Assembly: GCF_028816475.1 (NCBI RefSeq)
Contig: NZ_CP118247.1
Span: 1,612,001-1,676,000 of the forward strand
Reading direction: 5' to 3'
Source of the DNA: Devosia rhodophyticola
Lineage (GTDB): Bacteria > Pseudomonadota > Alphaproteobacteria > Rhizobiales > Devosiaceae
DNA length: 64,000 nucleotides
Position numbers and translations under genes: made by a program. The notes beneath the pieces are model-generated. The model ran no database searches, was not told the DNA's origin, and was given only the letters and a program-made list of their open reading frames with translations. Positions 1,376 through 56,991 of the stretch are shown here, in pieces; position 1 is the stretch's first letter, and every line of letters begins with the position of its first letter.

Positions 1376-1675
1376 GGTCTACTCCGCTCGTTTGGTGCAG
1401 AGACATTCGTCGGTTGGGCCAAAAATGTTACATTGACCCCGACGAAGCGGCGGTCTGCATTGGGGGTAGCTTAGCCAAGGTGCGTTGTTTTGTCGCGGAT
1501 TTCCTTGAGATGTGATCGACCGGATTTGTGCCCGGCAAGAAAGCGCTATCGGCACGTCTGACCCGTGTTTCACGTGAATCCGGCCGATAGGCCAGGTTTG
1601 AACCCGGGTCGGGTGCCTTCCAACCATTGCGATTCGGGGTATTGTGTTTAAGCTTGCGGGCGACAAGGAGCCGGG
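1376..1675. other. Divergent intergenic region between DUF2189 gene and LOV kinase gene
   Basis: This 300-bp stretch separates two divergent genes and must hold both promoters. I see no convincing small ORF and no clear sigma-70 hexamers. The one distinct element is the parS-like site at 1566-1581. AAGGAG just before 1676 is the ribosome-binding site of the kinase gene. Confidence 0.5.
1566..1581. other. parS: parS-like site (variant)
   Basis: TGTTTCACGTGAATCC matches 14 of 16 bases of the canonical ParB site TGTTTCACGTGAAACA. On the minus strand it reads GGATTCACGTGAAACA, the asymmetric form seen repeatedly in this window, and it contains a GANTC site (GAATC). It lies about 100 bp upstream of the LOV kinase. 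Confidence 0.65.
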
Positions 1676-2773
1676 ATGGGTCAAGCGAACATGACTACGG
1701 ACCGTGACGGCATTAGAGGAACAGGGTGGCACGCCTATGTGAGAGCGCTTGAGGCGAGCGCCGTGCCCATCGTGATCGCTGATCCGCACGCGGCCGACAT
1801 GCCGTTGGTGTTTGTAAATTCGGCTTTCCTGGCGTTGACCGGCTATGGCGAGCACGAAGTGCTGGGCCGCAACTGCCGGTTCCTGCAGGGCCCGAAAACA
1901 GCGGAAGCCGATCGCCATTCCATCGCGCAGGGGCTGGTTAATCGTGTGGCAATATCCCTCGAAATCCTGAACTACAAAAAGGACGGAAGCGCGTTCTGGA
2001 ACGAACTGCACATGGCGCCGATGTATGATGAGGCGGGCGGACTTGAGTTTTTCGTCGCTTCCCAGATCGATATCACCGAGCGAAAAGTGCGCCAGCAGGC
2101 GCTGCAACAGGCGCTGGATCAGCACACCGAAGCCTTGCGCCTGCAGGCCGAAGAGACACGCCATCTGGCGCACGAAATGACGCATCGCGTTCGCAATTCC
2201 CTGTCGCTGGTGCAAAGTATGCTGCGGCTTCAGGCCAGCTCATTGCAGGAGCAAAGTGCGCGCGAAGCCATCGTGAGCGCAATGGGGCGGATCGAGGCGG
2301 TGATTGAAATTCAACGCACCATAGAAAGCGCCGACGACGCGCCCGACGCCCGCATTGCCGATACTCTGGGAGCCTTGTGCGCCAAACTGACTCAGATCAG
2401 TCCTGTTCCTGTACAGAGCCAGCTTGAGGATGTTTCCGTGACGCGGGCGATGATGATGCCAATGGCGCTGATTGTTTCTGAACTGGTGACCAATGCGCAA
2501 AAGCATGGTTTTCCAGATGGGCGCACCGGCGAGATTACCGTGGGTCTGGCGCCCGTTGCGGGTGGCGCGATCCAATTGTCTGTTCAGGATAATGGCGTTG
2601 GTATTCCCAAAAAGTCTGAACTTGATGCAGCCCAAGGGTTTGGGATGAAAATGCTGCGCGGGCAGATCAGGCAACTGGGTGGCGCGTTGCGGGTGGAAAG
2701 TGGCGCGATGGGAAGCCTTTTTTGCGTGACCATCCCGGTCGAGGCAGGAACAGGCAAGGTGCCTGCCCCTTAG
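1676..2773 (+). CDS. LOV-domain (blue-light) sensor histidine kinase
   Basis: A soluble 365-residue kinase without membrane segments. Residues about 20-135 form a PAS/LOV domain with the flavin-adduct motif GRNCRFLQG, whose C67 would be the photoactive cysteine. A coiled linker follows, then a HisKA_2-type phosphoacceptor region HEMTHRVRNSL with H170 as the likely phosphorylated residue. Residues about 255-355 are a HATPase_c domain with VSELVTNAQKHG (N box) and DNGVGIP (G1 box). It should autophosphorylate in response to blue light and pass phosphate to a response regulator, but none is encoded next to it. The start is supported by AAGGAG upstream. The photochemistry is inferred from the intact Cys motif. 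Confidence 0.88.
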   Translation: MGQANMTTDRDGIRGTGWHAYVRALEASAVPIVIADPHAADMPLVFVNSAFLALTGYGEHEVLGRNCRFLQGPKTAEADRHSIAQGLVNRVAISLEILNYKKDGSAFWNELHMAPMYDEAGGLEFFVASQIDITERKVRQQALQQALDQHTEALRLQAEETRHLAHEMTHRVRNSLSLVQSMLRLQASSLQEQSAREAIVSAMGRIEAVIEIQRTIESADDAPDARIADTLGALCAKLTQISPVPVQSQLEDVSVTRAMMMPMALIVSELVTNAQKHGFPDGRTGEITVGLAPVAGGAIQLSVQDNGVGIPKKSELDAAQGFGMKMLRGQIRQLGGALRVESGAMGSLFCVTIPVEAGTGKVPAP

Positions 2774-2785
2774 CTCGGCCTGTTT

Positions 2786-4408
2786 CTAAACTTCGTGGCG
2801 ATCGGTCGGATCGGCAAACGGGCGATAGATAAAGCGGGAAAAATCCGCCGGGGTCGCCATGCCGTTCAGGTCGTGGGCTGCCATGCCGACAAAGGCGCCG
2901 GTGAAACTGCCATGCTCGGCGTGACCGCCACATTCATCGGAAAGAATGGAGGCATCAAGGACTGGCCCGATCGGGGTGCGTTCAGCATCGTCCAGCGCAT
3001 AATAAAATTGCAGGGCGGCGCCCCGAATGGTCAGGGCAAGCCGAACTGAGCCGGTGTTGGGAATGACGACGGGATCGGCGGGAAAGCGCAATTTGCCATC
3101 GGGAAAACTGGCCTCCGAACTCATGATCAAAAGCTCACGCCGCCCATCGGCGTCGGCAGTCGCGGCGAGATAGAAAAAGTTGTAGCGTCCGTAATAGGCA
3201 GTGAGCCCCGCCATGGTGCGTTCATCGGTGGGGGCGAAGTCCAGCATGGTTTCAGCGTCGAAAGAAAAGTGCGTTTGACGCCGGGCCACCAAGGCCTGTT
3301 CGAACCAGGAACCGATCGATTCGCGACCGAACAGGCGCAACGCGCCCGGTTGGGCCGTGAGCGAAAAAATGCGTTCGGTTTCAGGGGTGCGCAGCCATTG
3401 AAAATCGATGGGCAGGGGGTGGTCGGCCGTGAAGTCATAGTTCTGTTCAGCCCAGTAATCGGTGTCATCGCGCGCGCCGGGAACCTCAACCTGCAAAGAT
3501 GGCACTGGCCCGTTCTTCACGTGAAGCCAGTCATCGTCACCCCAATAGGCCTGTTGGATAGCGGTTTCCCGGCCCAAAACGCAGCGCCGCTTCTGGGTGG
3601 TTGGGCGGCCCGTCAGATGCACCAGATAGGTTTGGCCGTCCGGTGTTTCGACCAAGTCGCCGTGACCGGCACGCTGCAACGGGTTGAGCGGGTGATCCTT
3701 GGCAGTCAGAATGTGTTTTTGAGGATGGGTTTGATATGGCCCGTCGATATTGCGTGATCGGGCAAAGGTTATGGCGTGGTCATAGCCCGTGCCACCTTCG
3801 GCGGTCAGCAGATAATACCAGCCATTGCGCTTATAGAGATGCGGGCCTTCGACCAATTTGAGATCTGTGCCCTTGTAAATATTCTTGATCGGGCCGACCA
3901 ATTTGCCGACCTTGGCGTCGAACTCCTGCAGCGCGATACCAGCGAACAACAGGGGACGCGCGCGATGGTCCCAGAGCATGTTGACGAACCATTTTCGACC
4001 GTCGTCATCATGGAACAGGGATGGATCAAAACCCGATGAATTTGCATAGATCGGATCGGACCAGGGCCCTTCGATGTCTGGGGCGCTGACGATATAATTG
4101 TGGGCGTCCTTGAACGAGCCATCCTTGCGCTTGACGTCGGTATAGACGAGCCAGAATTTTTCACCGTCGTGGGTAAGACAGGGGGCCCAGACGCCGCAGC
4201 TGTCAGGATCGCCGCGCATGTCGAGCTGGCTGGCGCGATTGAGCGGGCGTGTCAGCAACTTCCAGTTGGCCAGATCGGTCGAGTGGTGGATTTGAACGCC
4301 CGGATACCATTCAAAGGTCGATGTGGCGATATAGTAATCCTTGCCAACCCGCAGGATTGAGGGATCCGGATTAAAGCCAGGCAGAATGGGATTGGTGATT
4401 TGAGACAT
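2786..4408 (-). CDS. xynB: GH43 beta-xylosidase
   Basis: A 540-residue glycoside hydrolase of family 43, the length usual for the two-domain beta-xylosidases (five-bladed propeller plus C-terminal beta-sandwich). The expected catalytic residues are present: general base D15 in GFNPDPS, pKa-modulating D128 in GFDPSLFHD and general acid E187 in VEGPHLYK. There is no signal peptide, so it probably works in the cytoplasm on imported xylo-oligosaccharides and releases xylose for XylA. It is the last gene of the xylB-xylA-xynB run, 99 bp after xylA with a hairpin in the gap. Some GH43 members also cleave arabinosides, so substrate range is open. Confidence 0.9.
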   Translation of the reverse strand: MSQITNPILPGFNPDPSILRVGKDYYIATSTFEWYPGVQIHHSTDLANWKLLTRPLNRASQLDMRGDPDSCGVWAPCLTHDGEKFWLVYTDVKRKDGSFKDAHNYIVSAPDIEGPWSDPIYANSSGFDPSLFHDDDGRKWFVNMLWDHRARPLLFAGIALQEFDAKVGKLVGPIKNIYKGTDLKLVEGPHLYKRNGWYYLLTAEGGTGYDHAITFARSRNIDGPYQTHPQKHILTAKDHPLNPLQRAGHGDLVETPDGQTYLVHLTGRPTTQKRRCVLGRETAIQQAYWGDDDWLHVKNGPVPSLQVEVPGARDDTDYWAEQNYDFTADHPLPIDFQWLRTPETERIFSLTAQPGALRLFGRESIGSWFEQALVARRQTHFSFDAETMLDFAPTDERTMAGLTAYYGRYNFFYLAATADADGRRELLIMSSEASFPDGKLRFPADPVVIPNTGSVRLALTIRGAALQFYYALDDAERTPIGPVLDASILSDECGGHAEHGSFTGAFVGMAAHDLNGMATPADFSRFIYRPFADPTDRHEV

Positions 4409-4474
4409 GGCTCGCGACCCTCAGGGATAAAATTGCGGGGAATGCAATTGGCTCGATGGTTTGTTCGGACAGAA

Positions 4475-4496
4475 GGGCAGGCTTTTCTGCCTGCCC
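4475..4496 (-). terminator. Stem-loop between xylA and xynB
   Basis: GGGCAGGC and GCCTGCCC form a perfect 8-bp stem around a 6-base loop, directly after the xylA stop in the direction of transcription. The downstream run is TTCTGTC rather than a clean T tract, so it is more likely a partial terminator or an mRNA-stabilising hairpin that lowers xynB relative to xylBA. Confidence 0.45.
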
Positions 4497-4507
4497 CAGA
4501 TCCCTGT

Positions 4508-5815
4508 CTAGACGAAGCGGTTGATCAGGTTTTCGAGGTATTCCTGCTGACCCGAACGGGGTTGGGGATTGATGTTTTCCTTTTCAACGCGCGCGGCAAT
4601 TTGTGCCAATGTGCGCTCGCCGTTGAGCATGGCCTGGGCTTCCGGCGCGTTCCAGTCGGCGTAGCGATCCTCCACGACCCTGTCGTAGGTGCCGTCTTCG
4701 ATCAGGGCAACGGCGGCCTTGAGCGAACGTGCCAACACGTCGAGCCCACCAATGTGGCCGTGCAGCAGATCGGCAGGATCAATGGATTGGCGACGCAGTT
4801 TGGCGTCAAAGTTAAAGCCACCCGAACCCAAACCGCCAGCCTTCAAGATTTGATAGAACGCCAGTGTCATTTCGGGCACCGAATTGGGAAACTGATCGGT
4901 GTCCCAGCCCGATTGAAGATCGTTGCGATTGGCATCCACCGAACCCAAGATGCCCAACGAGGCGGCCAGCGCCAATTCATGCTCGAAACTATGATTGGCA
5001 AGGAAGGCGTGGCCGACTTCGATGTTGCATTTGACGTGTTTTTCAAGACCATATTTCTTGAGGAAGCCATAGACCGTCGCCACGTCAAAGTCATATTGGT
5101 GCTTAGTTGGTTCCTGCGGCTTTGGCTCGATCAGGATCTGGCCTTTGAAGCCGATTTTTTCGGCGTGCTCGACGACGAGCGTCAAGAAACGGCCCATCTG
5201 GTCCATTTCCTGGCCGATGCGGGTATTAAGCAGCGTTTCATAGCCTTCACGGCCGCCCCAGAGCACATAATTGGCCCCACCCAACTCATGGGTGACTTGC
5301 ATGGCGGTTTGCACCTGACCGGCGGCATAGGCGAAAACGTCGGGATCGGGGTTTGTCGAGGCGCCTGACATGAAGCGACGGTTGGAGAACATATTGGCCG
5401 TGCCCCAGAGCAGGCGGGTACGACTGGTTTCCATCTTGCGCGCAAAAATTTCGGCAATTGTACGCACATTTTTGCTGCTCTCGGCCAAGCTGTCGCCCTC
5501 GGGCGCAATGTCGGCATCGTGGAAGCAGAAAAATGGTGCATCGAGCAGATCAAACAGTTCAAAGGCCACGTCGGCTTTGATTTTGGCGCCTTCCATGCCC
5601 TTGTCAAACCAGGGCCGGTCAAAAGTGCGCCCGCCAAATGGATCGCCACCTTCCCAGGCAAAGCTGTGCCAATAGGCGATGGCGGGGCGGATGTGATCCT
5701 CCATCCGCTTGCCCAAGACCATTTCGTTCTTGTCGTAGTGGCGATAGGCCAGCGCGTTGGTGCTGTCCTGGCCTTCATATTTGATCGGGGCTATATTTTT
5801 GAAGAAATCAGTCAC
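4508..5815 (-). CDS. xylA: Xylose isomerase
   Basis: A 435-residue class II xylose isomerase that converts D-xylose to D-xylulose in the cytoplasm. Visible signatures are [13 protein letters not shown] with the catalytic His, [17 protein letters not shown] with the metal-binding Glu and the catalytic Lys, and [17 protein letters not shown]. The start is GTG, inside a GTGA overlap with the xylB stop codon, and an AGGAGG Shine-Dalgarno sequence lies eight bases upstream. Translation is therefore likely coupled to xylB. Its product feeds XylB, encoded immediately upstream. Confidence 0.97.
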
Positions 5816-7281
5816 GAAATTGCCTCCTCGATGGCGGGATAGAGTGCGCGATAGCGCGCATATTGGTCGGCATAGACAGTCGACAGTGATTTGTCGGGCG
5901 CGATAAGGGTTTTGATTTTTGGCATGGTCATAACGCTTTGCGGATCAGCACCGGTGGCGGCGCACAGGCCCAATCGGGCGGCGCCGAGCGCGCCACCAAA
6001 ATCGCCATCTTCGGGCAACGCGATTTCCATATCCAAATTGGTGGCCAGCATTTTAAGCCAAAGCGCTGATTTTGAGCCCCCGCCAACTGCCAGCAGGCGG
6101 TCAATTTTGGTGCCCGCATCGGACAGAACCCGTTGGCAATCGCGGAAGGCAAAGCTGACACCCTCCATAACGGCCTGCGCCAATCGCGCTGGATCGGACA
6201 GGTGCGACAACCCCACAAAACTGCCACGTGCGTTGGCGTTATTGTGCGGCGTGCGTTCGCCCGACAGATAGGGCAGGAATATTTCCTCGCCCGGTCCGGT
6301 AAACCGGGCCTCAGCGGTGCCAGCCAGTTGGGCGGCGTTCTGTCCGGTCAGTTTGGCGAGCCAATTCAGACTATCGGTGGCCGACAGGATGACGCCCATC
6401 TGGTGCCAGGTGTTGGGTATGGCGTGACAAAATGCATGAACGGCGCCTTCGGTATTGGGCCGGAACTTGTCGTTGGAGACAAATAGAACTCCCGACGTTC
6501 CCAGCGAAACAAAGCCTTCGCCGAGGCGGACGGCGCCAATGCCGCAGGCGGAGGCGGCATTGTCACCAGCCCCGCCAGCAATCACGACCTCGCCATGCAT
6601 GCCCCAGCGGCTGGCCAGTTCCGGCTTTAATTTTCCCGCAACCTCGGTGCCTTCGACCAATCGCGGCATGTGAGAGCGGTCTAACCCGGTGACGCCCAGC
6701 AAGGCGTCGGACCAGTCGCGTCTGGCTACATCGAGCCAAAGGGTTCCGGCCGCATCGGACATGTCTTCTACATACTCACCACACAGCAGCAAGCGGACAT
6801 AGGCTTTGGGCAGCAGGACCTTGGCGATCCTGTCAAAAATTGCAGGCTCATTTTCGCGTACCCAGGCAATCTTTGGCGCGGTAAAGCCAGGCATGGCGAT
6901 GTTACCCGCCAACGCCCGCAGTTCGGGTAGCGCGGCCTCCATCTCGGTACATTGGGCGCTGGAGCGACCGTCATTCCACAGGATGGCGGGGCGCAAAACC
7001 GCGTCGCCTTTATCGAGAAGCGTAGCGCCATGCATGTGACCGGAAAGCCCGATGCCGCGCACATTGGCCAAGGCCTCGGCATTGGTTTTCGATAAGGCAT
7101 CGACGGTAGCAAGCGTAGCGCTCCACCAGTCGGCGGGATCCTGTTCGGACCAGCCGGGGTGTGGCCGGACGGGTTCGCGGGCGGCGGCCGTGGCCTCGCC
7201 GATGATCGTGCCGCCCTCATTGATCAGGAGCGCTTTTACCCCGGAGGTGCCGATATCGATACCGAGAAATGTTGCCGTCAT
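5812..7281 (-). CDS. xylB: Xylulokinase
   Basis: A 489-residue FGGY-family sugar kinase that phosphorylates D-xylulose to xylulose 5-phosphate for the pentose phosphate pathway. The N-terminal phosphate loop is [35 protein letters not shown] and [13 protein letters not shown] are typical xylulokinase motifs. It is the first enzyme gene of the operon and overlaps xylA by four bases (GTGA). The Shine-Dalgarno GAGG sits in a short inverted repeat, TGAGG-N6-CCTCA at 7281-7296, which could affect translation. A LacI-type regulator gene lies 86 bp upstream on the same strand. Confidence 0.96.
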
Positions 7282-7367
7282 GAGGCACGTACCTCAAATT
7301 TGACTATCAACATGGAATTTTTCCTCCCCGCCCAGAGGGCACCCGCAATGACATGATGGTCTGCTTC

Positions 7368-8408
7368 TTAGCCCAGATTGTCGCGCAGGAAAATCCTGAT
7401 TTCAATAGGCTCGTTATTTTCAAGTGTTCCAGCGCCCAGCGCCAACGTCCGAACAGCCGCCAAAGCCGCGCCAATCTCGCCATCCGGATTTTGATCCAGA
7501 ACCACATCAATTGACCCGTCGGCAAGCCCGGCGCGGGAACAATCGGAGAGTTCGTGGGCAATGACCCGCAAGGACCCTGTGCGTCTGGTACGGCGCAAGG
7601 CTGCTAGCAGACCAGTCGTACCGGCGCCGAGATTATAGATGCCACCCAGATCGGAGTGCCTCGCCAGAAGCTGCTCAACCAAAGCCTGCGTTTCCTGGTG
7701 TTCGTCATGGCCTTCAAGTGGTTCGAGCAATTCAAGGCCGGGATATTCGGCGGCCACGGCCCGAAAGCCTTCAAGCCGATCGTGATGGTCATGCAAATGC
7801 ATTGACCCAGCCACGAGGGCGATCTTGCCGCCCTGCGGGCAAAACCGGCCCATCAGTGAAGCCGCGGTCCGTCCGGCGGCAACATTGTCGATTCCGATAA
7901 AGTGGCGACGGCTGGAGCCGGGCAGGTCAGACACCAATGTCATGACCATGACGCCACGACGTGTCGCCTCTTCGACCGAAGCCAGCACGGCGGGCTCTTC
8001 GGTGCCCACAATGACGGCGCAATCGCACTGATGCGGCATCAGCACATCAAGGCTATCGACCAATGCCCGGGCATCCAGCAGGGGCAGGCGGGTAATCGCG
8101 ATCTGCAGCCGTTCGATCAGGGCGGATTCAATACGGCGTGAGGCTGCATCGGCCAGACTATCCATGAACTCATTTGAACCCGCAGGGATCAGAAACCGTA
8201 CCTGCAAATCGCGGGCGCGGGCTAATAGGGATGCGGAGAGATCGCGCTGAAAGCCAAGACTGGTAACGGCGTCCGCAACTTTCCTGGCTGTCGTCGGTCG
8301 CACCCCGGGCCGATTGTTGAGCACACGATCAACCGTTGCCAGCGATACGCCAGCAGCGCGCGCGACATCATGAACCGTGGCACGACGCGGAGTGGTTATC
8401 TCGTTCAA
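7368..8408 (-). CDS. LacI-family transcriptional regulator, probably of xylose genes
   Basis: A 346-residue LacI/GalR-type regulator. Residues about 10-32 form the DNA-binding helix-turn-helix (TVHDVARAAGVSLATVDRV, then the hinge LNNRPGVRPTT). Residues about 65-340 form a periplasmic-binding-protein-like sugar-sensing domain. The start is TTG with AAGGAG eight bases upstream; no better in-frame start is visible. Its place directly upstream of xylB-xylA-xynB and divergent from galM suggests control of pentose use, but the effector is inferred. I could not find a convincing palindromic operator in either flanking gap. Confidence 0.88.
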   Translation of the reverse strand: MNEITTPRRATVHDVARAAGVSLATVDRVLNNRPGVRPTTARKVADAVTSLGFQRDLSASLLARARDLQVRFLIPAGSNEFMDSLADAASRRIESALIERLQIAITRLPLLDARALVDSLDVLMPHQCDCAVIVGTEEPAVLASVEEATRRGVMVMTLVSDLPGSSRRHFIGIDNVAAGRTAASLMGRFCPQGGKIALVAGSMHLHDHHDRLEGFRAVAAEYPGLELLEPLEGHDEHQETQALVEQLLARHSDLGGIYNLGAGTTGLLAALRRTRRTGSLRVIAHELSDCSRAGLADGSIDVVLDQNPDGEIGAALAAVRTLALGAGTLENNEPIEIRIFLRDNLG

Positions 8409-8521
8409 TCGGCTCTCCTTTTGCTGGGCAAGGATGGGACGCGGCGCGCGAAAAGGTCAAGACCCAAGATTGTCAGGACGGAACGCTGACGCTAGACAGT
8501 TGCGGTAATAAGGAGTTTGCC

Positions 8522-9532: not shown

Positions 9533-9585
9533 CAGGCTGCGCCGCCCAAGGAACCCCGATGGCGCAAAGACGTTGCAGTCTAGAC

Positions 9586-9607
9586 TAATCTGGCGCTAAT
9601 CTGGCGC
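9586..9607 (+). repeat. Tandem 11-bp repeat upstream of cfa
   Basis: TAATCTGGCGC occurs twice head to tail, 34 bp before the cfa start codon. It may be a regulator binding site or a replication-slippage product. Confidence 0.6.
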
Positions 9608-9641
9608 TATCGTTAGGTAGATCATTATCAGCGTCAAAGCC

Positions 9642-10760: not shown

Positions 10761-10776
10761 CGATTCACGTGAAACA
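10761..10776. other. parS: parS-like site (variant)
   Basis: CGATTCACGTGAAACA matches 14 of 16 bases of canonical parS. It sits three bases after the cfa stop and directly beside two DnaA-box-like sequences. It includes the GANTC site GATTC. Confidence 0.7.
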
Positions 10777-16345: not shown

Positions 16346-17213
16346 CATAAACCTGTTTGCGCTTAAGCCCGAAAGCGGTGCTGATTTCATCAACGGCGGC
16401 CCGCAGGGGTTGGTCGGCCAGGGCATCGACCAACACTGCCTGCCAATCATCGGCGGCAATCGGGGTGGCTTCTGGTGCGCCAGCCACCACAATGACCGCC
16501 TCGCCCCTGGTTTCGCCCTGTGCAAACTCTTGTGCCAGCTCAGCCAGCGAGCCGCGATGCACGCGCTCAAAGCGCTTGGTCAGTTCAAGCGCCACCGCCG
16601 CCTGCCGGTCGGCGCCAAAGGCTTCGCCCATGGCCGCAAGACAATCGTCAAGGCGCCTGGGACTTTCATAAAAGACCAAAGTTTCACGTGAATCAGCCAT
16701 TCCCGCGAGCGCCTTGAGCCGCGCGCCGGTCTTGGTGGGCAAGAACCCGTGGAAGGTAAAAGCGTCGGTCGGCAGGCCTGCAACCACCATTGCTGAAAGC
16801 AGTGCCGAGGCGCCGGGGATGGCGAAAACCGGCAGGCCAGCTTCCCCGAGGGCGCGAATCAGCGGAAAGCCCGGATCAGACAGCAGCGGCGTCCCCGCGT
16901 CCGAAATCAGGGCGATGGCCTGCCCTTGCTGCAAGCGAGCGATGATATTATCAATCCGGGCGCGCTCATTGTGCTGATGCAAGGCCATGCGCGGCCCCTT
17001 GATCCCATAGTGATCCAGCAGACGGGCCGACAGCCGCGTATCCTCGCATAGAACCAGATCGGCAGCGGCCAGGGTTTCCAGCGCCCGCAGGGTGATATCG
17101 CGCAGATTACCAATCGGCGTGGCCACCGCGTAAAGACCGGGAGCGAGTTTGGGTGCGGCAAATGCCGTGCCGGTAATGAAGTAAGTGCCGGATTTTTGCT
17201 GTTCGTTGGTCAA
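16314..17213 (-). CDS. rsmI: 16S rRNA 2'-O-methyltransferase RsmI
   Basis: A 299-residue tetrapyrrole-methylase-fold enzyme that 2'-O-methylates C1402 of 16S rRNA with SAM. GLYAVATPIGNLRDIT and LCEDTRLSARLLDHYG are diagnostic, as is ALISDAGTPLLSDPG. The start is TTG at 17213: an in-frame stop lies ten codons upstream and no ATG is available. A parS-like site lies inside the gene at 16680-16695. It leads the rsmI-yraN-gshB operon and is divergent from an LpoA-like gene, a common arrangement. Confidence 0.96.
   Translation of the reverse strand: MTNEQQKSGTYFITGTAFAAPKLAPGLYAVATPIGNLRDITLRALETLAAADLVLCEDTRLSARLLDHYGIKGPRMALHQHNERARIDNIIARLQQGQAIALISDAGTPLLSDPGFPLIRALGEAGLPVFAIPGASALLSAMVVAGLPTDAFTFHGFLPTKTGARLKALAGMADSRETLVFYESPRRLDDCLAAMGEAFGADRQAAVALELTKRFERVHRGSLAELAQEFAQGETRGEAVIVVAGAPEATPIAADDWQAVLVDALADQPLRAAVDEISTAFGLKRKQVYDAALALKAKK
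16680..16695. other. parS: parS-like site inside rsmI
   Basis: AGTTTCACGTGAATCA; on the minus strand TGATTCACGTGAAACT. It matches 14 of 16 bases of canonical parS, contains GANTC (GAATC) and lies within coding sequence. Confidence 0.65.
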
Positions 17214-28548: not shown

Positions 28549-28564
28549 GGTTTCACGTGAATCA
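28549..28564. other. parS: parS-like site (variant)
   Basis: GGTTTCACGTGAATCA; on the minus strand TGATTCACGTGAAACC. It matches 14 of 16 bases of canonical parS and includes GANTC (GAATC). It sits four bases before a terminator in the gap ahead of dnaJ. Confidence 0.65.
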
Positions 28565-39601: not shown

Positions 39602-40332
39602 CCGGCGTTGGCCTTTAAGCGCGCCAATGCTTCACGTGAATCAATTCGTCCGTCGTAAAGCGCCCGACCTGAAATTGCCCCGGCCAGAACGCGCGTATCG
39701 GACTGAGTCATGCGATTAATGTCGGCCATCGACGCCAATCCGCCCGAGGCGATCACCGGGATCATTGTCGCTTGGGCCAGGGCGATGGTGGCATCCCAAT
39801 TGATCCCCGCCAGAACACCGTCGCGGTCGATATCGGTATAGATGATGGCGGCGACGCCGACCCCTTCAAAACGTTTGGCCAGTTCGATGACATCGAGTTC
39901 GGATGTTTCGGCCCAGCCTTCGACCGCAACTTTGCCGCCACGGGCGTCTATACCGACGGCGATCTGGCCGGGATAACGTTTGGCAGCGGCCTTGACCAGA
40001 TCGGGATCGCGCACGGCGACGGTGCCGAGAATGACGCGGGCCAGACCCTTGTCGAGCCAGGCATCAATATGATCGAGCGTGCGAATGCCGCCCCCCAATT
40101 GAACCGGGAATTTAACGGCCTTGAGAATTTCCTCCACCGCTTTCCCATTTACGCTCTGGCCGGCAAAGGCCCCATTGAGATCGACAACGTGCAGATATTG
40201 GAACCCCTGATCCTCAAAGCTCTTGGCCTGGTCGGCTGGGCTATCGTTGAAAACCGTCGCCTCGTTCATGTCGCCTAGCTTGAGGCGCACGCATTGGCCA
40301 TCCTTGAGATCAATGGCGGGGAAAAGAATCAT
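39598..40332 (-). CDS. hisA: Phosphoribosylformimino-5-aminoimidazole carboxamide ribotide isomerase
   Basis: A 244-residue half-barrel-repeat TIM enzyme of histidine synthesis. [16 protein letters not shown] contains the first catalytic Asp, [14 protein letters not shown] the second, and [15 protein letters not shown] and [11 protein letters not shown] bind phosphates. The ATG at 40332 overlaps the hisH stop (ATGA); its own stop overlaps the next gene (ATGA). A parS-like site lies near its 3' end. Confidence 0.97.
39628..39643. other. parS: parS-like site inside hisA
   Basis: TGCTTCACGTGAATCA; on the minus strand TGATTCACGTGAAGCA. It matches 13 of 16 bases of canonical parS, contains GANTC and lies in coding sequence. 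Confidence 0.55.
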
Positions 40333-49139: not shown

Positions 49140-49744
49140 GCGACTGGGGTTTCCAATAAATATTGCGGCGCAATAGTGCGCAGGGCAGCCAATAGCGGCA
49201 ACAGTGGCAGGCCCAAAATAGTGAAATAGTCACCCGAAACGGCTTCGAACAGGCGAATGGATGGTCCTTCAAGACGGTATCCACCCACCGATTCCAACAC
49301 TGTCTCGCCTTCAAGGCCCAAAACGAAATCGCGTTCCTCGGCGGAAAAATCACGCATCGACAGTTCGGCCGTCTCAAGACTCGACCACATGATGGTATCG
49401 TCGCGTACCAATGCAACGCCAGCGTGTAGGCGATGTGTTTTGCCCGCGAGCTGATCGAGCTGGGCAATGGCATCGTGGCGATCGCGTGGTTTGTGCAAAA
49501 GTTCGGTCCCCAGCGCCAGGGTCTGGTCAGCGCCGATGACCAGCGCGCCAGGATTTTGTTGGGCAACGTTGCGTGCCTTGGCAATCGCTAGCAGGCTGGC
49601 GATGTCGCGCGCGTCGGCGCCACTGGCAATCGCTTCGGCTTCCAGCCAGCGTTCGTCTATGGCAGCTGGCACACAGGTAAAGTTCAGACCCGCCTGATTG
49701 AGCAGGGCTTTGCGGGTGCTACTCTGTGACGCAAGGATCAACAT
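49136..49744 (-). CDS. maf: Maf-family nucleotide pyrophosphatase
   Basis: A 202-residue Maf/YhdE-type nucleoside triphosphate pyrophosphatase that removes non-canonical nucleotides. LILASQSSTRKALLNQAG is the phosphate-binding start, VIGADQTLALG the catalytic Asp motif, and VGGYRLEGPSIRLFE is typical. The promoter is the minus-strand side of the candidate origin region, so the maf operon and hemE flank it divergently. Confidence 0.96.
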   Translation of the reverse strand: MLILASQSSTRKALLNQAGLNFTCVPAAIDERWLEAEAIASGADARDIASLLAIAKARNVAQQNPGALVIGADQTLALGTELLHKPRDRHDAIAQLDQLAGKTHRLHAGVALVRDDTIMWSSLETAELSMRDFSAEERDFVLGLEGETVLESVGGYRLEGPSIRLFEAVSGDYFTILGLPLLPLLAALRTIAPQYLLETPVA

Positions 49745-49753
49745 GGCATCAGG

Positions 49754-49762
49754 TTTTCCACA
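49754..49762 (+). other. DnaA-box-like site
   Basis: TTTTCCACA fits the relaxed DnaA box TTWTNCACA, ten bases upstream of the maf start codon. Confidence 0.5.
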
Positions 49763-49937
49763 CTGTCATCCCCAGCTCAAGCCCCGGTTGTGGTTATTGG
49801 GTGGCGATTTCGCTTCCAGTCAGACTTATTCGACCAGCTTCATATTTCGTTAACAATTCAACTTCGCCCCTCACCCAAAAGTACTAATGGATAGCTCTAG
49901 GGATAACGCTTCGGATGCAGCAACCATTGCGGCCCGG

Positions 49938-49946
49938 TTTTGCACA
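49938..49946 (+). other. DnaA-box-like site
   Basis: TTTTGCACA fits TTWTNCACA and lies 36 bp from the first CtrA box. Confidence 0.5.
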
Positions 49947-49982
49947 TGCACGGTTGTCGGACACGCCAGAGGCAAAGCCCTA

Positions 49983-49997
49983 TTAACACTTCGTTAA
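49983..49997. promoter_or_regulatory. CtrA-type box 1 in candidate oriC
   Basis: TTAA-CACTTCG-TTAA, an exact TTAA-N7-TTAA. Confidence 0.65.
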
Positions 49998-50003
49998 CCC
50001 GGT

Positions 50004-50018
50004 TTAACAAACCATTAA
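50004..50018. promoter_or_regulatory. CtrA-type box 2 in candidate oriC
   Basis: TTAA-CAAACCA-TTAA, 21 bp (two helical turns) from box 1, start to start. Confidence 0.65.
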
Positions 50019-50040
50019 CCCACAGTGCGAAAAGAAAATA

Positions 50041-50055
50041 TTAACACCTGATTAA
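50041..50055. promoter_or_regulatory. CtrA-type box 3 in candidate oriC
   Basis: TTAA-CACCTGA-TTAA, 37 bp from box 2, start to start. It could also control the hemE promoter. Confidence 0.65.
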
Positions 50056-50185
50056 CCATGTTGCTGCGCCTTTGTGCCGCGACACCCCAGATTGTTAAGC
50101 GCCGTGAATTGGGGCAAAACACAGCCATGATAAAGAAGATAAAGAAAGAAAGACTCTTTTATAGAGTTTTGAAGGGGTGGTTCTC

Positions 50186-51220
50186 ATGAGCGCTGTGGCT
50201 GACAAACCATTGCTGGCAACCGTGCTTGGTCAGCGCCAGTCCCGACCACCCATCTGGATCATGCGGCAAGCGGGGCGGTACCTGCCTGAGTATCGAGAAA
50301 CGCGGGCCCGCTCCAAAGGGTTCCTTGATCTGTGTTATACGCCCGACCTGGCCGTTGAGGTCAGCCTGCAGCCATTGGCGCGCTTTGATCTTGATGCAGC
50401 TATTCTTTTTTCTGACATTCTGGTAATTCCAGATGCCCTGGGACAATCAGTAAGGTTTGCCGAGGGAGAAGGACCGCTGCTGGAGCCACTGAGCGTTGAA
50501 ACGCTCGGCATACTCCGGCCAGAACGCGTGCTTGACCATTTGGCCCCTGTTTTTGAAACGCTGGTCCGCTTGCGCCGCACTCTTGATGGCTCCAAGACAC
50601 TGATTGGGTTTTGCGGTTCTCCCTGGACCGTGGCGACCTATATGCTGGGCGGAAAGGGTTCGCCGGATCAGGCGGCGGCGCGTTTGTTTGCGCTCAAGCA
50701 CCCGCAGGCCTTTGCTCAGCTGATGGATATTCTGGTCGATGTCAGCGTTGATTATCTTGAAGCTCAGTTCATAGCAGGTGCTGATGTTGTTCAGCTCTTT
50801 GAAAGCTGGGCGCTCAATCTTGATGAAGTCGCTTTTGCCCGACATGTCATCGAGCCTAATCGGCGGATTATTGTGGGTCTGCGTCAGCGGATTCCCAATG
50901 CACCGATTATCGGTTTTCCGCGCGGCGCTGCAGGGATGGTCCGTTCCTATGTTGATGCTACCGGGGTCAATATGGTCGGGCTGGACTACGCAACGCCACT
51001 TTCCTTTGCCAATGGCGCTTTGCCGGCCGATTTTGGTGTGCAAGGCAATCTTGATCCGCTTCGTCTGGTGGTCGGGGGCGAACAGATGGAACAGCGGGCT
51101 AGGGAAATTATTGACGGTTTTGCCGGGCGGCCGCACGTTTTCAATCTTGGTCATGGCATTGTGCCGCAAACGCCGATCGAAAACGTGGCGCGACTGGTCG
51201 ATCTAGTCAAGAAGGGTTAG
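50186..51220 (+). CDS. hemE: Uroporphyrinogen decarboxylase
   Basis: A 344-residue enzyme that converts uroporphyrinogen III to coproporphyrinogen III in heme synthesis. WIMRQAGRYLPEYRE, FSDILVIPDALGQ, GFCGSPWTVATYML and NLGHGIVPQTP are all signatures. AAGGGG eight bases upstream fixes the ATG at 50186. The gene adjoins the candidate origin, and hemJ follows four bases after its stop. Confidence 0.98.
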   Translation: MSAVADKPLLATVLGQRQSRPPIWIMRQAGRYLPEYRETRARSKGFLDLCYTPDLAVEVSLQPLARFDLDAAILFSDILVIPDALGQSVRFAEGEGPLLEPLSVETLGILRPERVLDHLAPVFETLVRLRRTLDGSKTLIGFCGSPWTVATYMLGGKGSPDQAAARLFALKHPQAFAQLMDILVDVSVDYLEAQFIAGADVVQLFESWALNLDEVAFARHVIEPNRRIIVGLRQRIPNAPIIGFPRGAAGMVRSYVDATGVNMVGLDYATPLSFANGALPADFGVQGNLDPLRLVVGGEQMEQRAREIIDGFAGRPHVFNLGHGIVPQTPIENVARLVDLVKKG

Positions 51221-51224
51221 CAGC

Positions 51225-51647
51225 ATGGAATGGGTCAAGGCGGCGCATGTGATATCGGTTATTGCCTGGATGGCGGGGATGCTTTATCTGCCGCGCCTGT
51301 TTGTTTATCACGCCGATGCGGAAATTGGTTCGGTGCAATCAGAAACGTTCAAAGTCATGGAGCGTCGGCTGTTGCGTGGCATCATCAATCCAGCGATGAT
51401 TGCGGCATTCATTTTCGGACTTTGGATGATTGGTGCCGGTTTTATCGACTGGTCGCAGGGTTGGCCCTGGGTGAAGGCGTTCTTCGTGCTGGTACTCTCG
51501 GCTTTTCATGGCCATCTGGCCGGTCATTTCAAGCGATTCGCCAAGGATGCGAACCAGAAACCTGCGAAATATTTCAGGCTGATCAATGAAGTGCCGACCG
51601 TGGCGATGATCATTATCGTCATTATGGTCATCGTGCGGCCATTTTAG
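51225..51647 (+). CDS. hemJ: Protoporphyrinogen oxidase HemJ
   Basis: A 140-residue membrane protein with four helices, the HemJ type of protoporphyrinogen IX oxidase. WVKAAHVISVIAWMAGMLYL and LPRLFVYHAD hold the conserved His, Arg and Tyr residues, and FHGHLAGHFKRFA is typical. It lies four bases after hemE in a heme operon. Confidence 0.95.
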   Translation: MEWVKAAHVISVIAWMAGMLYLPRLFVYHADAEIGSVQSETFKVMERRLLRGIINPAMIAAFIFGLWMIGAGFIDWSQGWPWVKAFFVLVLSAFHGHLAGHFKRFAKDANQKPAKYFRLINEVPTVAMIIIVIMVIVRPF

Positions 51648-51649
51648 GC

Positions 51650-51665
51650 TGTTTCACGTGAATCT
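51650..51665. other. parS: parS-like site (variant)
   Basis: TGTTTCACGTGAATCT; on the minus strand AGATTCACGTGAAACA. It matches 14 of 16 canonical parS bases and contains GANTC. It starts three bases after the hemJ stop. Confidence 0.7.
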
Positions 51666-51712
51666 ACGACTTTTCCGGTTTCATTCTTGAATCCGGGACC
51701 GCTTCGCGCTAA

Positions 51713-51775
51713 GGGAGGTCATCGCATCCAAAGTGTTCGATCACATCTGATCACCGTGGCGGTGCAATCCCTCCC
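51713..51775 (+). promoter_or_regulatory. Possible structured leader of rho mRNA
   Basis: GGGAGG (51713-51718) can pair with CCTCCC (51770-51775), enclosing hairpins GATCA-CATC-TGATC (51739-51752) and CACCG-TGG-CGGTG (51752-51764). The structure ends 50 bases before the rho ATG. Rho genes are often autoregulated in their leaders, but the stems here are short, so this is tentative. Confidence 0.35.
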
Positions 51776-51824
51776 AGAATATACTCCCGCCTCACTCTGA
51801 TTTCCCTAAAGGGTCATCCCTCAC

Positions 51825-53090
51825 ATGCAGAATATGAAGCTCAGCGAGCTTAAGGCCAAAACGCCAGCCGAACTGTTGGTATTTGCCGAAGAACATGAGG
51901 TCGAAAACGCCTCGACCATGCGCAAACAGGAATTGATGTTTGCGATCCTCAAGGAACTTGCGGACAAGGATGTCGACATCACCGGCGAAGGTGTGGTCGA
52001 GGTTTTGCCGGACGGGTTTGGCTTTTTGCGCTCACCAGATGCCAATTATCTGCCAGGGCCGGACGATATTTACGTCAGTCCTTCCCAGATTCGGCGATTT
52101 TCGCTACGCACGGGGGATACGGTTGAGGGACAAATTCGTTCGCCTAAGGAAGGCGAACGCTATTTTGCGCTGCTTAAGGTCAATACGATAAATTTCGAAG
52201 ATCCTGAGAATGTGCGTCACAAAATAAATTTTGACAATCTGACACCGCTCTATCCCGAAGAGCGGTTGAATATGGAACTGCCTGATCCAACGCTCAAGGA
52301 TCGCAGTGCCCGTATTCTGGATCTGGTTGCCCCGCTTGGTAAGGGACAGCGCGCCCTGATTGTGGCGCCGCCTCGCACCGGTAAAACGGTATTGTTGCAA
52401 AATATTGCACAATCAATCGCGACCAATCATCCCGAGTGCTATCTCATCGTGTTGCTGATTGATGAACGGCCTGAGGAAGTGACCGACATGCAACGCTCGG
52501 TTAAGGGCGAAGTCATTTCATCGACGTTTGATGAACCGGCTAGCCGCCACGTCCAGGTTGCTGAAATGGTGATTGAAAAGGCCAAACGTCTTGTCGAACA
52601 CAAGCGCGACGTGGTGATCCTGCTCGACTCCATTACACGTCTGGGCCGTGCTTATAATACGGTTGTGCCGTCATCGGGCAAGGTTTTGACCGGTGGTGTC
52701 GATGCCAATGCCTTGCAGCGTCCCAAGCGCTTCTTTGGCGCTGCGCGCAACATCGAAGACGGTGGATCGCTAACGATCATCTCGACGGCGCTTATCGACA
52801 CAGGCAGCCGTATGGATGAAGTGATCTTTGAAGAGTTCAAGGGCACGGGCAATTCGGAAATTATCCTCGATCGTAAGGTTGCGGACAAGCGCGTATTCCC
52901 AGCTCTTGATATTACAAAGTCCGGTACACGTAAGGAAGAATTGCTGGTTGAGCCAGACATTCTCAAGAAAATGTACGTCTTGCGGCGAATTCTATCGCCA
53001 ATGGGCACTATTGATGCGATGGAATTCCTAATGGATAAGATCCGTCAAACAAAGACGAACTCCGATTTCTTTGACTCAATGAATACCTGA
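51825..53090 (+). CDS. rho: Transcription termination factor Rho
   Basis: A 421-residue hexameric RNA helicase. The N-terminal [20 protein letters not shown] is the Rho N domain, [20 protein letters not shown] the RNA-binding cold-shock fold, [13 protein letters not shown]alker A, and [14 protein letters not shown] follows. [20 protein letters not shown] is the secondary RNA-binding loop. The true start could be the ATG at 51825 or 51834; neither has a strong Shine-Dalgarno. Confidence 0.98.
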
Positions 53091-53097
53091 TCGAATA

Positions 53098-54396
53098 ATG
53101 CTTATCGACGACACGATCGTAGCGTTATCTTCTGGCGCTTTACCGTCTGGCGTCGCTGTTATTCGTCTATCGGGTCCCTTGACCCGCTTTCTGGTTGAGC
53201 AACTGTGTGGTGAGGTTCCTACTCCTCGCCAGATGGCACTGCGTTCTATTGGTGCGAGAACTATCCTTGACCGTGGTCTGGTGGTGTTTTTTCAAGCACC
53301 GCACAGCTTTACCGGTGAAGATTGCGCAGAACTGCAAGTTCACGGTTCACCCGCTGGCGTGCGGGCGATCCTACGTACTCTGACTGAATTGGGCGCGCGT
53401 CTTGCAGAAGCTGGAGAATTTACCCAGCGAGCCTTCGAAAATGGCAAACTGGACCTGGTGGCTGTTGAGGGCCTCGGCGATCTGTTGAGTGCAGAAACCG
53501 AATCTCAGCGTCGACAGGCTTTGGCTCGGTTTGAAGGTGGTTTGAGCGACAAGATTGAGCGTTGGCTCGATCAGCTGCTGGACTTGCGTGCGGAAATAGA
53601 AGCACAACTCGATTTTTCGGATGAAGGCGACGTTGGTGCATTGCCAGATGACTTTGCCGAGAAGGTCCGTGCCCTTCAAATGGAGTTGATGTCGTCGCTT
53701 GATAATGTCGAACGGGGTCGCGTGGTACGGGAGGGTCTAAGGGTCGCGTTGGCGGGTCCGCCAAATGCAGGAAAATCTAGCCTGCTCAATGCGCTGGCAA
53801 ATTCCGACATTGCCATTGTTACCCAGGAGGCTGGTACCACACGCGATGTTCGTGAAGTTGCCATTGATATCGACGGGCAACTTGTTGTGCTACTCGACTT
53901 GGCCGGTTTACGATCATCTGACAGTCTGGCTGAAACTGAGGGGGTCAGGCGCGCCCACGCCGAAATATTACGCGCTGATTTGGTCTTGTGGCTCGTCGCG
54001 CCAGATTGTCCGCCAGAGGCGATACCTGAGACTGACGCGCCAATTCTACGACTGGCGACCAAGTCTGACCTTGTTGTTCACGATAGACGCGAAGAAGATA
54101 TTTCGGTGTCGGTGATCAGTAGCATCGGCTTAGTCGAACTTCGCGAGCGGTTGTCTAAGTTTGCCCAGACATTGGTTGGTGTCGGTGAACCGGTTCTGGT
54201 AAGCCGTGAGCGTGACAGATTGGCGTTGAGGCAAGGGTGTGAGGCCTTGACTGGCACACTGGATAGTCTGAATTCCCCCGAATTGGCGGCCGAATCGCTG
54301 CGTATCTGTTCCCAGGCTTTAGAAAGGCTCGTTGGGAAAATTGATTCAGAGCGAGTTTTGGACCGGCTGTTTTCGAGTTTTTGCATTGGCAAATGA
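53098..54396 (+). CDS. mnmE: tRNA modification GTPase MnmE
   Basis: A 432-residue protein with an N-terminal tetrahydrofolate-binding domain (DTIVALSSGALPSGVAVIRL), a helical domain, an inserted G domain (GPPNAGKSSLLNAL is G1) and the C-terminal catalytic CIGK. With MnmG it makes 5-carboxymethylaminomethyluridine in tRNA. The G3 motif reads DLAGLR where DTAG(I/L)R is usual; the Asp and Gly are kept. The stop codon TGA is the first three bases of a parS-like site. Codon use appears more AT-rich than in the 15-45 kb genes. Confidence 0.97.
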   Translation: MLIDDTIVALSSGALPSGVAVIRLSGPLTRFLVEQLCGEVPTPRQMALRSIGARTILDRGLVVFFQAPHSFTGEDCAELQVHGSPAGVRAILRTLTELGARLAEAGEFTQRAFENGKLDLVAVEGLGDLLSAETESQRRQALARFEGGLSDKIERWLDQLLDLRAEIEAQLDFSDEGDVGALPDDFAEKVRALQMELMSSLDNVERGRVVREGLRVALAGPPNAGKSSLLNALANSDIAIVTQEAGTTRDVREVAIDIDGQLVVLLDLAGLRSSDSLAETEGVRRAHAEILRADLVLWLVAPDCPPEAIPETDAPILRLATKSDLVVHDRREEDISVSVISSIGLVELRERLSKFAQTLVGVGEPVLVSRERDRLALRQGCEALTGTLDSLNSPELAAESLRICSQALERLVGKIDSERVLDRLFSSFCIGK

Positions 54397-54409
54397 TTCA
54401 CGTGAAACA
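54394..54409. other. parS: parS-like site at the mnmE stop codon
   Basis: TGATTCACGTGAAACA matches 15 of 16 canonical bases. Its first three bases are the mnmE stop. It contains GANTC (GATTC). Confidence 0.82.
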
Positions 54410-54430
54410 TTGTGCCCGGTGCAAAAAAAT

Positions 54431-54446
54431 TGATTCACGTGAAACA
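54431..54446. other. parS: parS-like site upstream of mnmG
   Basis: TGATTCACGTGAAACA, identical to the site 37 bp away and in the same orientation. The pair lies between mnmE and mnmG. Confidence 0.82.
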
Positions 54447-54480
54447 TTGCTCTAAATAGGCCGTTCACAGGAATTTTTCT

Positions 54481-56343
54481 ATGACTGACTATGCTGTCAT
54501 CGTTGTTGGCGGTGGCCATGCCGGATGTGAAGCTGCCGCCGCTGCGGCGCGCACGGGTGTGCCGACGGCGTTGATTACGCACAGACATGCGACAATTGGC
54601 GAGATGAGCTGTAACCCCGCCATCGGTGGTTTGGGCAAAGGTCATTTGGTCCGTGAAATCGACGCGCTTGACGGCTTGATGGGGAGAGTGGCTGACGCCG
54701 CAGGTATCCAATTCCGTGTTCTTAATCGTCGAAAAGGTCCTGCTGTTCGGGGTCCCCGGGCGCAGGCAGATCGCAAACTCTACCGGCAAGCCATGCAAAC
54801 AGCTATTGCGGCTCAGCCTCATCTGGATGTCATCGAAGGCGAGGTAGACGATATTCAAGTCATCGAGGGTACGGTGACAGGGGTGGTTCTTCTGGATGGC
54901 CGCTCGTTCGCTACGCGTTCGGTTGTCCTGACTACGGGAACATTTCTGCGCGGGTTGATTCATCGTGGTGAGGAAACCACGCCGGCCGGCCGTCTCGGAG
55001 AAAAGCCAGTACTTGGGCTTTCCAGCAGACTCGAAGCGCTCGGACTACATTTGGGCAGATTGAAGACCGGTACGCCGGCTCGCCTCGATGGATCAACTAT
55101 TGACTATACCGATCTTGACGAACAGGCAGGGGATAATCCGCCCGAGCCGTTCTCAGCGTTGACACGATCAATCACAACTCGGCAGATCAGCTGTTATGTG
55201 ACACGAACGACTGCCGAGACACATCAAATAATAGCCGACAATATCCATCGTTCAGCGATGTATTCGGGTAGAATTCAAAGCCGTGGTCCGCGCTATTGTC
55301 CCTCGATAGAGGACAAGATTGTGCGATTTGCCGACCGTGACAGTCACCAAATATTTCTCGAGCCCGAGGGATTGGACGACCCAACCGTTTATCCGAATGG
55401 TCTTTCGACTTCGCTACCTGCAGACGTACAATTGGCATTCCTCCAGTCGATGCCGGGATTGTCCAATGTGCGGATCATTCGACCGGGATACGCCATTGAG
55501 TATGACCATGTAGATCCGCGCGAACTGCGGCACACACTTGAGTTGAAGCGCCTGCCGGGGCTCTTTCTGGCCGGCCAGATCAATGGCACGACCGGTTATG
55601 AAGAAGCGGGTGCCCAAGGACTTCTAGCCGGCGCAAATGCGGCGTTTCTTGCTATGGGCAAGCCGCCGTTGATCATGTCGCGTACACAAAGTTACCTGGG
55701 TGTGATGGTCGATGACCTCGTGACGCGTGGTGTTGCTGAGCCCTACCGCATGTTTACGTCACGTGCGGAATTTCGGCTGCATCTGCGTGCCGACAATGCT
55801 GATCAGCGTCTGACGCAGTTGGGAATTGATGTCGGGTTGGTTGGGAAAGCGCGCGGCGCAATTTTTCAGGAGAGGGCGCAGGGGCTCCGCACCGGTCGGA
55901 AAATTCTCGATGAACTGAGCGTCACGCCAAGTGTTGCCAGCAGGGCTGGACTGGCTGTAAACGCTGATGGCAAAAGGCGGACGGCTTTTGAACTACTGTC
56001 CTACCCCAATATCGACGTTGGACTGGTTAAAGAGCTATTTCCAGACATTGGTATGATTGAACCGGTTCATCTTGATCAATTGCTGGTTGATGCGCATTAC
56101 GCCGTTTATCTCGATCGGCAGGCCGCCGATATTGCGGCGGTTCAGCGTGACGAGGGCCGGGTAATTCCAGATTGGGTGGACTATGCGGGTATTGGTGGGC
56201 TGTCGATTGAGCTTCGTCAGAAGTTGGCGCAATTCAAGCCGCAGACAATTGCCCAAGCGCAGTCGCTCGACGGTATGACACCGGCCGCAATTACGCTCCT
56301 TCTGGCGGTCATTCGGCGCGGTCAAATGCGGAAAACTGGTTAA
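54481..56343 (+). CDS. mnmG: tRNA uridine-5-carboxymethylaminomethyl modification enzyme MnmG (GidA)
   Basis: A 620-residue FAD protein that acts with Mnm[21 protein letters not shown] is the FAD-binding start, [21 protein letters not shown] and RGPRAQADR are signatures, and [11 protein letters not shown] precedes the second FAD motif [15 protein letters not shown]. The spacer to mnmE carries two parS-like sites. rsmG begins on the very next base after the stop. Confidence 0.98.
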
Positions 56344-56991
56344 GTGGCCAGTTTCGATGAGATTGATCGGGTCCTGAGCTACCTGGATAGATGTGTCAGA
56401 CCGAGTGCCGATATTATTGCAGATTTGGAATCCTATTCTGCGTTGCTGCAGAAGTGGCAACGGATACAGAATCTTGTTTCACGTGAAACACTGAATTTGA
56501 TTTGGTCGCGCCATTTCATTGATAGCTTGCAGGTGTTGTCGCTGCTGAAACGGTCTGACCGGTCATTTTTGGACCTCGGTAGTGGTGGTGGTTTTCCAGC
56601 GCTACCGCTGGCGATTGCCCTGAAGGGGAGTGACGCGCGGTTTGTTCTTGTGGAGCCAAATGGGCGCAAAGTCAGCTTTCTGCGAACTGTAGCGCGCGAA
56701 TTGGGTTTGGCAGTGCAGGTCGACGGGCGCCGGAGCGACCAGATAGATTCACGTGAAACACCACCCATTAATGTCATTACCTCTCGGGCATTGGCACCGC
56801 TGCCGCAGCTAAACGCAATGATTGCGCCGTTTTTTGGCCCCAGTACGCGCGCAATCCTGCATAAAGGCAGGGAACATGTTGAAGAATTAGCAGAAGCTGG
56901 TGCGCAATGGCATTTTAACGTGCTATTAACCAAAAGCGACACTGCTGAAGACAGTGTCTTGATCGAACTTAGCGATTTGCGCTCGATCTAG
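56344..56991 (+). CDS. rsmG: 16S rRNA (guanine-527-N7)-methyltransferase RsmG (GidB)
   Basis: A 215-residue SAM methyltransferase. WQRIQNLVSRETLN and RHFIDSLQVL are characteristic, FLDLGSGGGFPALPLAI is the SAM loop, and VLVEPNGRKVSFLR and VITSRALAPLPQL follow. GTG start directly after the mnmG stop. The gene carries two parS sites, including the only perfect canonical copy in the window (56475-56490). parA follows 30 bases later. Confidence 0.97.
   Translation: MASFDEIDRVLSYLDRCVRPSADIIADLESYSALLQKWQRIQNLVSRETLNLIWSRHFIDSLQVLSLLKRSDRSFLDLGSGGGFPALPLAIALKGSDARFVLVEPNGRKVSFLRTVARELGLAVQVDGRRSDQIDSRETPPINVITSRALAPLPQLNAMIAPFFGPSTRAILHKGREHVEELAEAGAQWHFNVLLTKSDTAEDSVLIELSDLRSI
56475..56490. other. 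parS: Canonical parS site inside rsmG
   Basis: TGTTTCACGTGAAACA is a perfect match to canonical parS, about 0.5 kb from parA. It is the only one of the ten sites here without GANTC. Confidence 0.92.
56745..56760. other. parS: parS-like site inside rsmG
   Basis: AGATTCACGTGAAACA matches 14 of 16 canonical bases and contains GANTC. It is 270 bp from the perfect site. Confidence 0.75.

Follow-up and report, generated by a model that had tools for sequence, protein, structure and literature searches.

Asymmetric parS sites with a GANTC word in one half may link ParB loading to replication in Devosia

The window analysed here, a 64,000-base stretch of the Devosia rhodophyticola chromosome (genome positions 1612001-1676000 of a single 3.47-Mb contig), is the origin region of this soil bacterium. 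It carries parA, parB and a predicted origin of replication (oriC), with parS-like sites on both sides. We observed that nearly all of these sites are one-sided: one half is canonical, and the other contains GANTC, the predicted target word of the methyltransferase CcrM. We suggest, tentatively and at a little short of even confidence, that these sites, which lie close to parAB and to the predicted origin, make ParB loading replication-responsive via CcrM; this would apply to Devosia and to roughly half the families sampled from the order Hyphomicrobiales. Methylation of the sites, binding by ParB and coupling to replication are steps that we infer from sequence comparison. An earlier interpretation made from the letters of the window alone (the sequence-only reading) had proposed such a coupling; our data support that interpretation in part, namely the asymmetric motif, its clustering at the origin, the CcrM homologue and the scarcity of GANTC.

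One-sided parS-like sites cluster around the predicted origin

The window holds 11 copies of the core TTCACGTGAA, where 0.01 are expected from shuffles, and the flanking G and C of the parS core are present at ten of the 11. The sequence-only reading had listed these ten; they are real, and their positions are right as 16-mer starts. It had omitted the copy at 3516, which has no flanking G or C and is therefore not parS-like. We number each half-site T1 G2 T3 T4 T5 C6 A7 C8, so that the one-sided change is T3A. Nine of the ten flanked sites take the form GATTCACGTGAA(A/G)C when put in one orientation, with GATTC in exactly one half, as the sequence-only reading had said. The tenth, at 56475, is the perfect TGTTTCACGTGAAACA. 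The claim that only this copy lacks GANTC holds inside the site, but a GAATC word lies just outside it (Table 1). Family models confirmed that four sites are coding (rsmI, hisA and rsmG twice).

Across the whole genome we counted 14 copies of TTCACGTGAA, the 11 in the window included. The flanked word G-N-TTCACGTGAA-N-C occurs 11 times, and all 11 copies (ten one-sided, one perfect) fall within one 78-kb stretch (1613567 to 1691528), ten in the window and one lying 15.5 kb to its right. The uniform genome-wide spread that had been named as contrary evidence was not seen. Far copies of TTCACGTGAA at 1238124 and 2135014 were considered as parS and rejected, as the flanking G and C are absent. 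Around the predicted origin the sites reach 48 kb leftward and 29.5 kb rightward, past the window edge; the earlier figure of almost 50 kb to one side was close for the left and missed the extension to the right.

GANTC is scarce elsewhere in the window. It occurs 79 times, compared to ~239 expected from base composition, and the seven other palindromic pentamers of like make-up are all commoner (98-374). Nine of these 79 words fall in the ten 14-base cores, which make up 0.2% of the sequence.

The one-sided change is retained in Devosiaceae

A scan of relatives for the motif, as the sequence-only reading had advised, found one-sided sites in all 68 Devosia genomes, 675 in total; each genome has between 3 and 13, with a median of 10. 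Among the matches listed they are clustered, with spans of up to ~110 kb. The two-sided word GATTCACGTGAATC was found in none of the 68 genomes, and none of 272 sites in Devosiaceae loci was two-sided.

We then compared homologous positions in 39 of 46 Devosiaceae loci, taking sites within two mismatches; sites lost altogether are not counted. The other seven are short or differently anchored loci, plus L046 and L048. The family count leaves out L045 and L047, which are not Devosiaceae; a first count had taken in L045, L047 and L049. The site between hemJ and rho had T3A against a canonical half in 35 of 35 cases, with GANTC intact in 35. The mnmE-mnmG sites had T3A in 80/80 and intact GANTC in 79/80; two of the 80 read GACTC, one also had G2A, and in two the opposite half had T5C. 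At the rsmG-3' site T3A was present in 31 of 32 copies (one also had T5A; the exception had G2A against a canonical half), and GANTC was intact in 30. No perfect palindrome occurred among the 147 sites at these three positions. The rsmG-5' site, by comparison, was perfect in both halves in 38/38. The parB-holA site was mixed: 12 perfect, 9 T5C, 4 C8T, 4 T3A+T5C and 6 others. The T3A adenine is thus kept in place, even in non-coding gaps, while the site that usually lacks GANTC drifts.

The GAATC beside the perfect rsmG-5' site is formed by an Asn codon, which is AAT after G in 43 of 43 Asn copies (L001-L048); AAT makes up 60% of Asn codons in long open reading frames. The Leu codon that follows varies in this set, which was chosen by GAATC. 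This codon evidence for a selected flank is suggestive only. As a general rule the flank was rejected: it is fixed in Devosiaceae, but none of 81 regional sites in the rest of the order has it.

Distribution in the order and beyond

Outside Devosiaceae we sampled 100 genomes of the order from 41 families (three of 103, near contig ends, are not included) and collected sites within two mismatches of GTTTCACGTGAAAC. Among 329 sites, 159 were perfect, 90 had T3A against a canonical half, 7 had T3A+T4C against a canonical half, and the rest had other changes. Two-sided T3A sites numbered 0 of 329, compared to 8 expected. This exclusion indicates a need for one canonical half and leaves the choice of GANTC unexplained. 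T3A was found in 20/41 families and 48/100 loci, and parsimony on a ParB tree gives 23 switches in its presence. Changes at position 3 were mostly to A (T3A 103, T3C 17, T3G 4).

For other alphaproteobacteria we used 40 of 118 genomes with ParB. Their 94 sites comprised 78 perfect ones, one with T3A against a canonical half and one with T3A against T3G. T5C was the commonest change here, and of the 8 sites with T5C, 4 had it in both halves. When the phylum was sampled evenly, GATTCACGTGAARC turned up in 26/47 genomes of the order, 1/90 other alphaproteobacteria and 9/211 other Pseudomonadota; among alphaproteobacteria the trait appears largely specific to the order. One of these nine other genomes, which gave no CcrM match, has the site ~570 bases from parB and another has it 21 kb away; in the rest it lies on other contigs or far off.

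GANTC density also climbs toward sites that lack an internal GANTC. Around 212 such sites in the order it rises from 3.1/kb at 121-250 bases to 6.8/kb within 15 bases, and other alphaproteobacteria show a like rise (2.6 to 5.0 per kb, 86 sites). Within 30 bases of such sites GANTC is likewise denser than at 121-250 bases in both sets of loci (L050-L149 and L150-L189).

Second changes in T3A halves often keep GANTC

Among 17 doubly changed T3A halves, nine read GACTC, which keeps GANTC, and seven break it. T4C, which keeps GANTC, was found in 9/295 T3A halves and 3/907 other halves (P = 3e-4). GANTC-breaking second changes showed the opposite bias, with 7/295 in T3A halves and 57/907 in other halves (P = 0.007). 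Counted by hand as rough events, seven of nine T4C changes fell in T3A halves (P = 0.001).

CcrM and ParB

The genome encodes a CcrM homologue of 377 aa in which both a RAMA domain and the DPPY motif are present; this homologue and the GANTC scarcity fit the sequence-only reading, which had presumed CcrM methylation in this organism. We searched for CcrM in 80 of the 100 genomes collected from the order, after removing near-duplicates. All 80 had a match, two with a stop inside it, so genomes without CcrM cannot serve as a natural control within the order.

ParB in the window keeps the equivalents of the Caulobacter parS-contact residues Q162, G170, K171, S172, R173, N178, G201 and R204, as listed in PMC7383237. 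At the position equivalent to Caulobacter 184 it has K/R. The same is true of 45/47 proteins from L001-L048, 39/48 proteins of the order with T3A, 41/52 without T3A, and at most 2/40 from other alphaproteobacteria. In Noc, the counterpart of this permissive residue makes a backbone contact at the same base position (PMC7383237), and K/R here is possibly a permissive change. As a cause of the trait it was rejected; there is no correlation within the order.

How a GANTC half could tune ParB loading

In the mechanism that we propose, a ParB dimer would always occupy the canonical half, and the GANTC half would be weakened while both of its adenines are methylated, before replication. Fork passage would leave the GANTC half hemimethylated and relieve the weakening. 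ParB loading would then go up on freshly copied origins and down again with the late-cycle action of CcrM. A half-site with a methylation-dependent fit would thus be a dial on ParB loading, and the perfect rsmG site would be the constitutive core.

The predicted rise follows from two points, that origin-near GANTC is hemimethylated longest in Caulobacter and that loading needs both half-sites. Origin-near GANTC in Caulobacter is hemimethylated in about 80% of cells (PMC3973325), and the same timing is described for methylation near ori1 of Agrobacterium (PMC11514494). Spacers inserted between the parS half-sites abolish the stimulation of ParB cytidine triphosphate (CTP) hydrolysis, a readout of loading (PMC8494293). 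Loading therefore depends on both halves, and a methylation-sensitive half would accordingly be able to tune it. The sign of the effect is a guess: we lean slightly toward methylation weakening the half, and it could instead strengthen it.

A broader version, which we hold with more doubt, is that of a replication-sensing centromere. The Hyphomicrobiales would have repeatedly built CcrM targets into one parS half, and the methylation state left by the fork would set the rate at which ParB clamps load. As each site is asymmetric, the sister copies would differ in which bases are hemimethylated, so that they could be distinguished. For the question of how origin segregation is timed relative to replication, a methylation word fixed inside a centromere-like site, present genus-wide and recurring in the order, offers a directly testable physical link from fork passage to ParB loading. 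If the link is real, work on ParB with unmethylated DNA would overlook a level of regulation in these bacteria.

Evidence against the proposal and alternative explanations

Several observations weigh against coupling through CcrM. Shared ancestry inflates the P values above, and the counts are not independent. Five of the seven GANTC-breaking T3A halves are the T3A+T5C combination at the parB-holA site, which reads GATCC and is found in five Devosiaceae loci, so T3A can persist in the absence of GANTC. When Devosiaceae are taken by themselves, T3A halves do not have clearly fewer GANTC-breaking changes (7/192 versus 20/352). The retention counts cover only sites still found, lost sites being excluded. 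One genome of another class (locus L195, position 931) has GATTCACGTGAAAC ~570 bases upstream of parB and no CcrM match at E 1e-10; together with the GATCC halves, it shows that T3A can occur independently of CcrM. Other alphaproteobacteria are nearly without the trait (a T3A half in 2/94 sites), and their loci are also GANTC-poor. Most alphaproteobacteria have CcrM according to PMC3973325, so that it is presumably present in most of the 40 controls. Lastly, site orientation follows no rule. A rule in which the GATTC half faces the origin, for directional loading, fits most window sites and was rejected: the hemJ-rho site, the site at 10764 and that at genome position 1691517 are exceptions, and neighbouring sites in other families face both ways.

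The strongest alternative is tuning by ParB itself. The T3A half would be an affinity variant that the ParB of the order prefers or tolerates, one canonical half would be required, and GANTC would be a by-product. We consider this a real possibility, though a fairly doubtful one. It accommodates the GATCC halves and the T3A site next to parB in the genome that gave no CcrM match, as well as the frequent K/R at the 184-equivalent position. Caulobacter parS sites, too, share one conserved half, the other being less so (PMC5815017). Within the order, however, the K/R residue is not correlated with the trait, and tuning by ParB leaves unexplained why A is preferred to C or G, why homologous sites in non-coding gaps include no perfect palindromes, and why T4C is coupled to T3A.

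It is also conceivable, but improbable, that information flows from ParB to methylation. ParB on parS would shield the sites from CcrM, much as the regulator MucR is reported to protect GANTC words in Caulobacter (PMC5172544), and hypomethylated sites would serve as marks, a memory of occupancy. The GANTC words could instead serve GcrA or the timing of promoters, with the overlap arising from GANTC-rich gaps near the origin. The rise in GANTC density toward sites without an internal GANTC, in the order and in other alphaproteobacteria alike, agrees with such a reader; the occurrence of sites within rsmI, hisA and rsmG and the fixed place of the word in the palindrome speak against it and make it very improbable. 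A memory of occupancy would itself need a reader, and we know of none for such a mark, which counts against shielding. Chance or neutral multiplication of a single ancestral variant, to which the common ancestry of homologous sites lends some credit, is already disfavoured by the 23 presence changes and the lack of perfect palindromes at the three homologous positions, and we give it next to no credence.

Relation to known systems

Devosia shares with the chromosomal ParABS arrays of Caulobacter, Bacillus and Streptomyces a 16-bp TGTTTCACGTGAAACA core near the origin, adjoining parAB. It differs in that nearly all of its sites are one-sided, with GANTC in the variant half. Large arrays are described elsewhere (Streptomyces coelicolor and Listeria innocua, for instance, have 22 sites), whereas the five strongest parS sites of Caulobacter lie within 5 kb, unlike the 78-kb spread here (PMC5815017). 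The parS1 consensus of Agrobacterium is called identical to that of Bacillus (PMC9239152).

With cell-cycle methylation by CcrM the shared features are the homologue with its RAMA domain, the scarcity of GANTC and origin-near sites expected to be hemimethylated longest. The roles of CcrM described in the literature consulted are at promoters and repABC operons; in Devosia the word lies inside a centromere-like site. GANTC has also been reported at the Caulobacter parS locus. In repABC replicons GANTC lies near partition sites and a role in partitioning has been suggested, but there the words adjoin a different parS motif, on secondary replicons (PMC9040568, PMC11514494). SeqA/Dam sequestration at E. 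coli oriC offers an analogy, with hemimethylation as a post-replication timer (PMC11514494, PMC2865523); it differs in acting on replication initiation, with another enzyme and a dedicated reader protein. In the literature searched, which included few subscription papers, we found no description of GANTC inside chromosomal parS. A literature search for the word GATTCACGTGAA gave unrelated matches only, and one for parS and ParB in Hyphomicrobiales gave none.

Gene order and other features of the window

The gene order is hemE-hemJ-rho-mnmE-mnmG-rsmG-parA-parB-holA-leuS. parA adjoins parB and both lie close to the predicted oriC, the arrangement of a chromosomal ParABS system. A plasmid search with the mnmE-mnmG gap as query gave no match. 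The nearest named ParB locus that we found is that of Devosia algicola (94% identity; very near records may be left out). The oriC prediction rests only on CtrA- and DnaA-box-like words. GC skew within window positions 1-64000 is mostly positive to the left and right of the predicted oriC, with no switch there.

Table 1. Positions of parS-like sites and associated features in the window
Feature	Position	Strand	Remarks
Asymmetric parS-like site	1566..1581	-	GATTC half right
Asymmetric parS-like site	10761..10776	+	GATTC half left; directly 3' of cyclopropane-fatty-acid synthase gene
Asymmetric parS-like site	16680..16695	-	Within rsmI, codons Asp-Ser-Arg-Glu-Thr
Asymmetric parS-like site	28549..28564	-	~210 bases upstream of dnaJ reading frame
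Asymmetric parS-like site	39628..39643	-	Within hisA 3' end; other half has GAAGC
Predicted oriC	49750..50180	.	Upstream of hemE; three TTAA-N7-TTAA boxes (49983, 50004, 50041), two DnaA-box-like words (49754, 49938)
Asymmetric parS-like site	51650..51665	-	Between hemJ and rho
Asymmetric parS-like site	54394..54409	+	Begins with the mnmE stop codon TGA (54394-54396)
Asymmetric parS-like site	54431..54446	+	mnmE-mnmG gap
GAATC flanking perfect parS	56469..56473	.	Two bases outside site
Perfect symmetric parS	56475..56490	.	Within rsmG
Asymmetric parS-like site	56745..56760	+	Second half of rsmG
parA	57010..57822	+	
parB as read in assembly	57824..58687	+	C-terminal part out of frame compared to relatives
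Decayed parS-like word GTTTCAAGTGAAAC	58715..58730	.	Between parB and holA; same place as drifting site of relatives

The C-terminal domain of parB (window 58519-58695) matches relatives (83% to L001) in another frame than the rest of the gene, and the annotated reading frame therefore terminates in unrelated residues. Either a mistake in the assembly or a true lesion may be the cause; relatives have intact parB copies. Between the convergent parB and holA, an inverted repeat at 58705-58740 reads GTTTCAAGTGAAAC in the window and may now be a terminator hairpin. The sites at 16680, 39628 and 56745 are read in the same frame in their three genes, as Asp-Ser-Arg-Glu; one alternative frame on the same strand would yield a stop.

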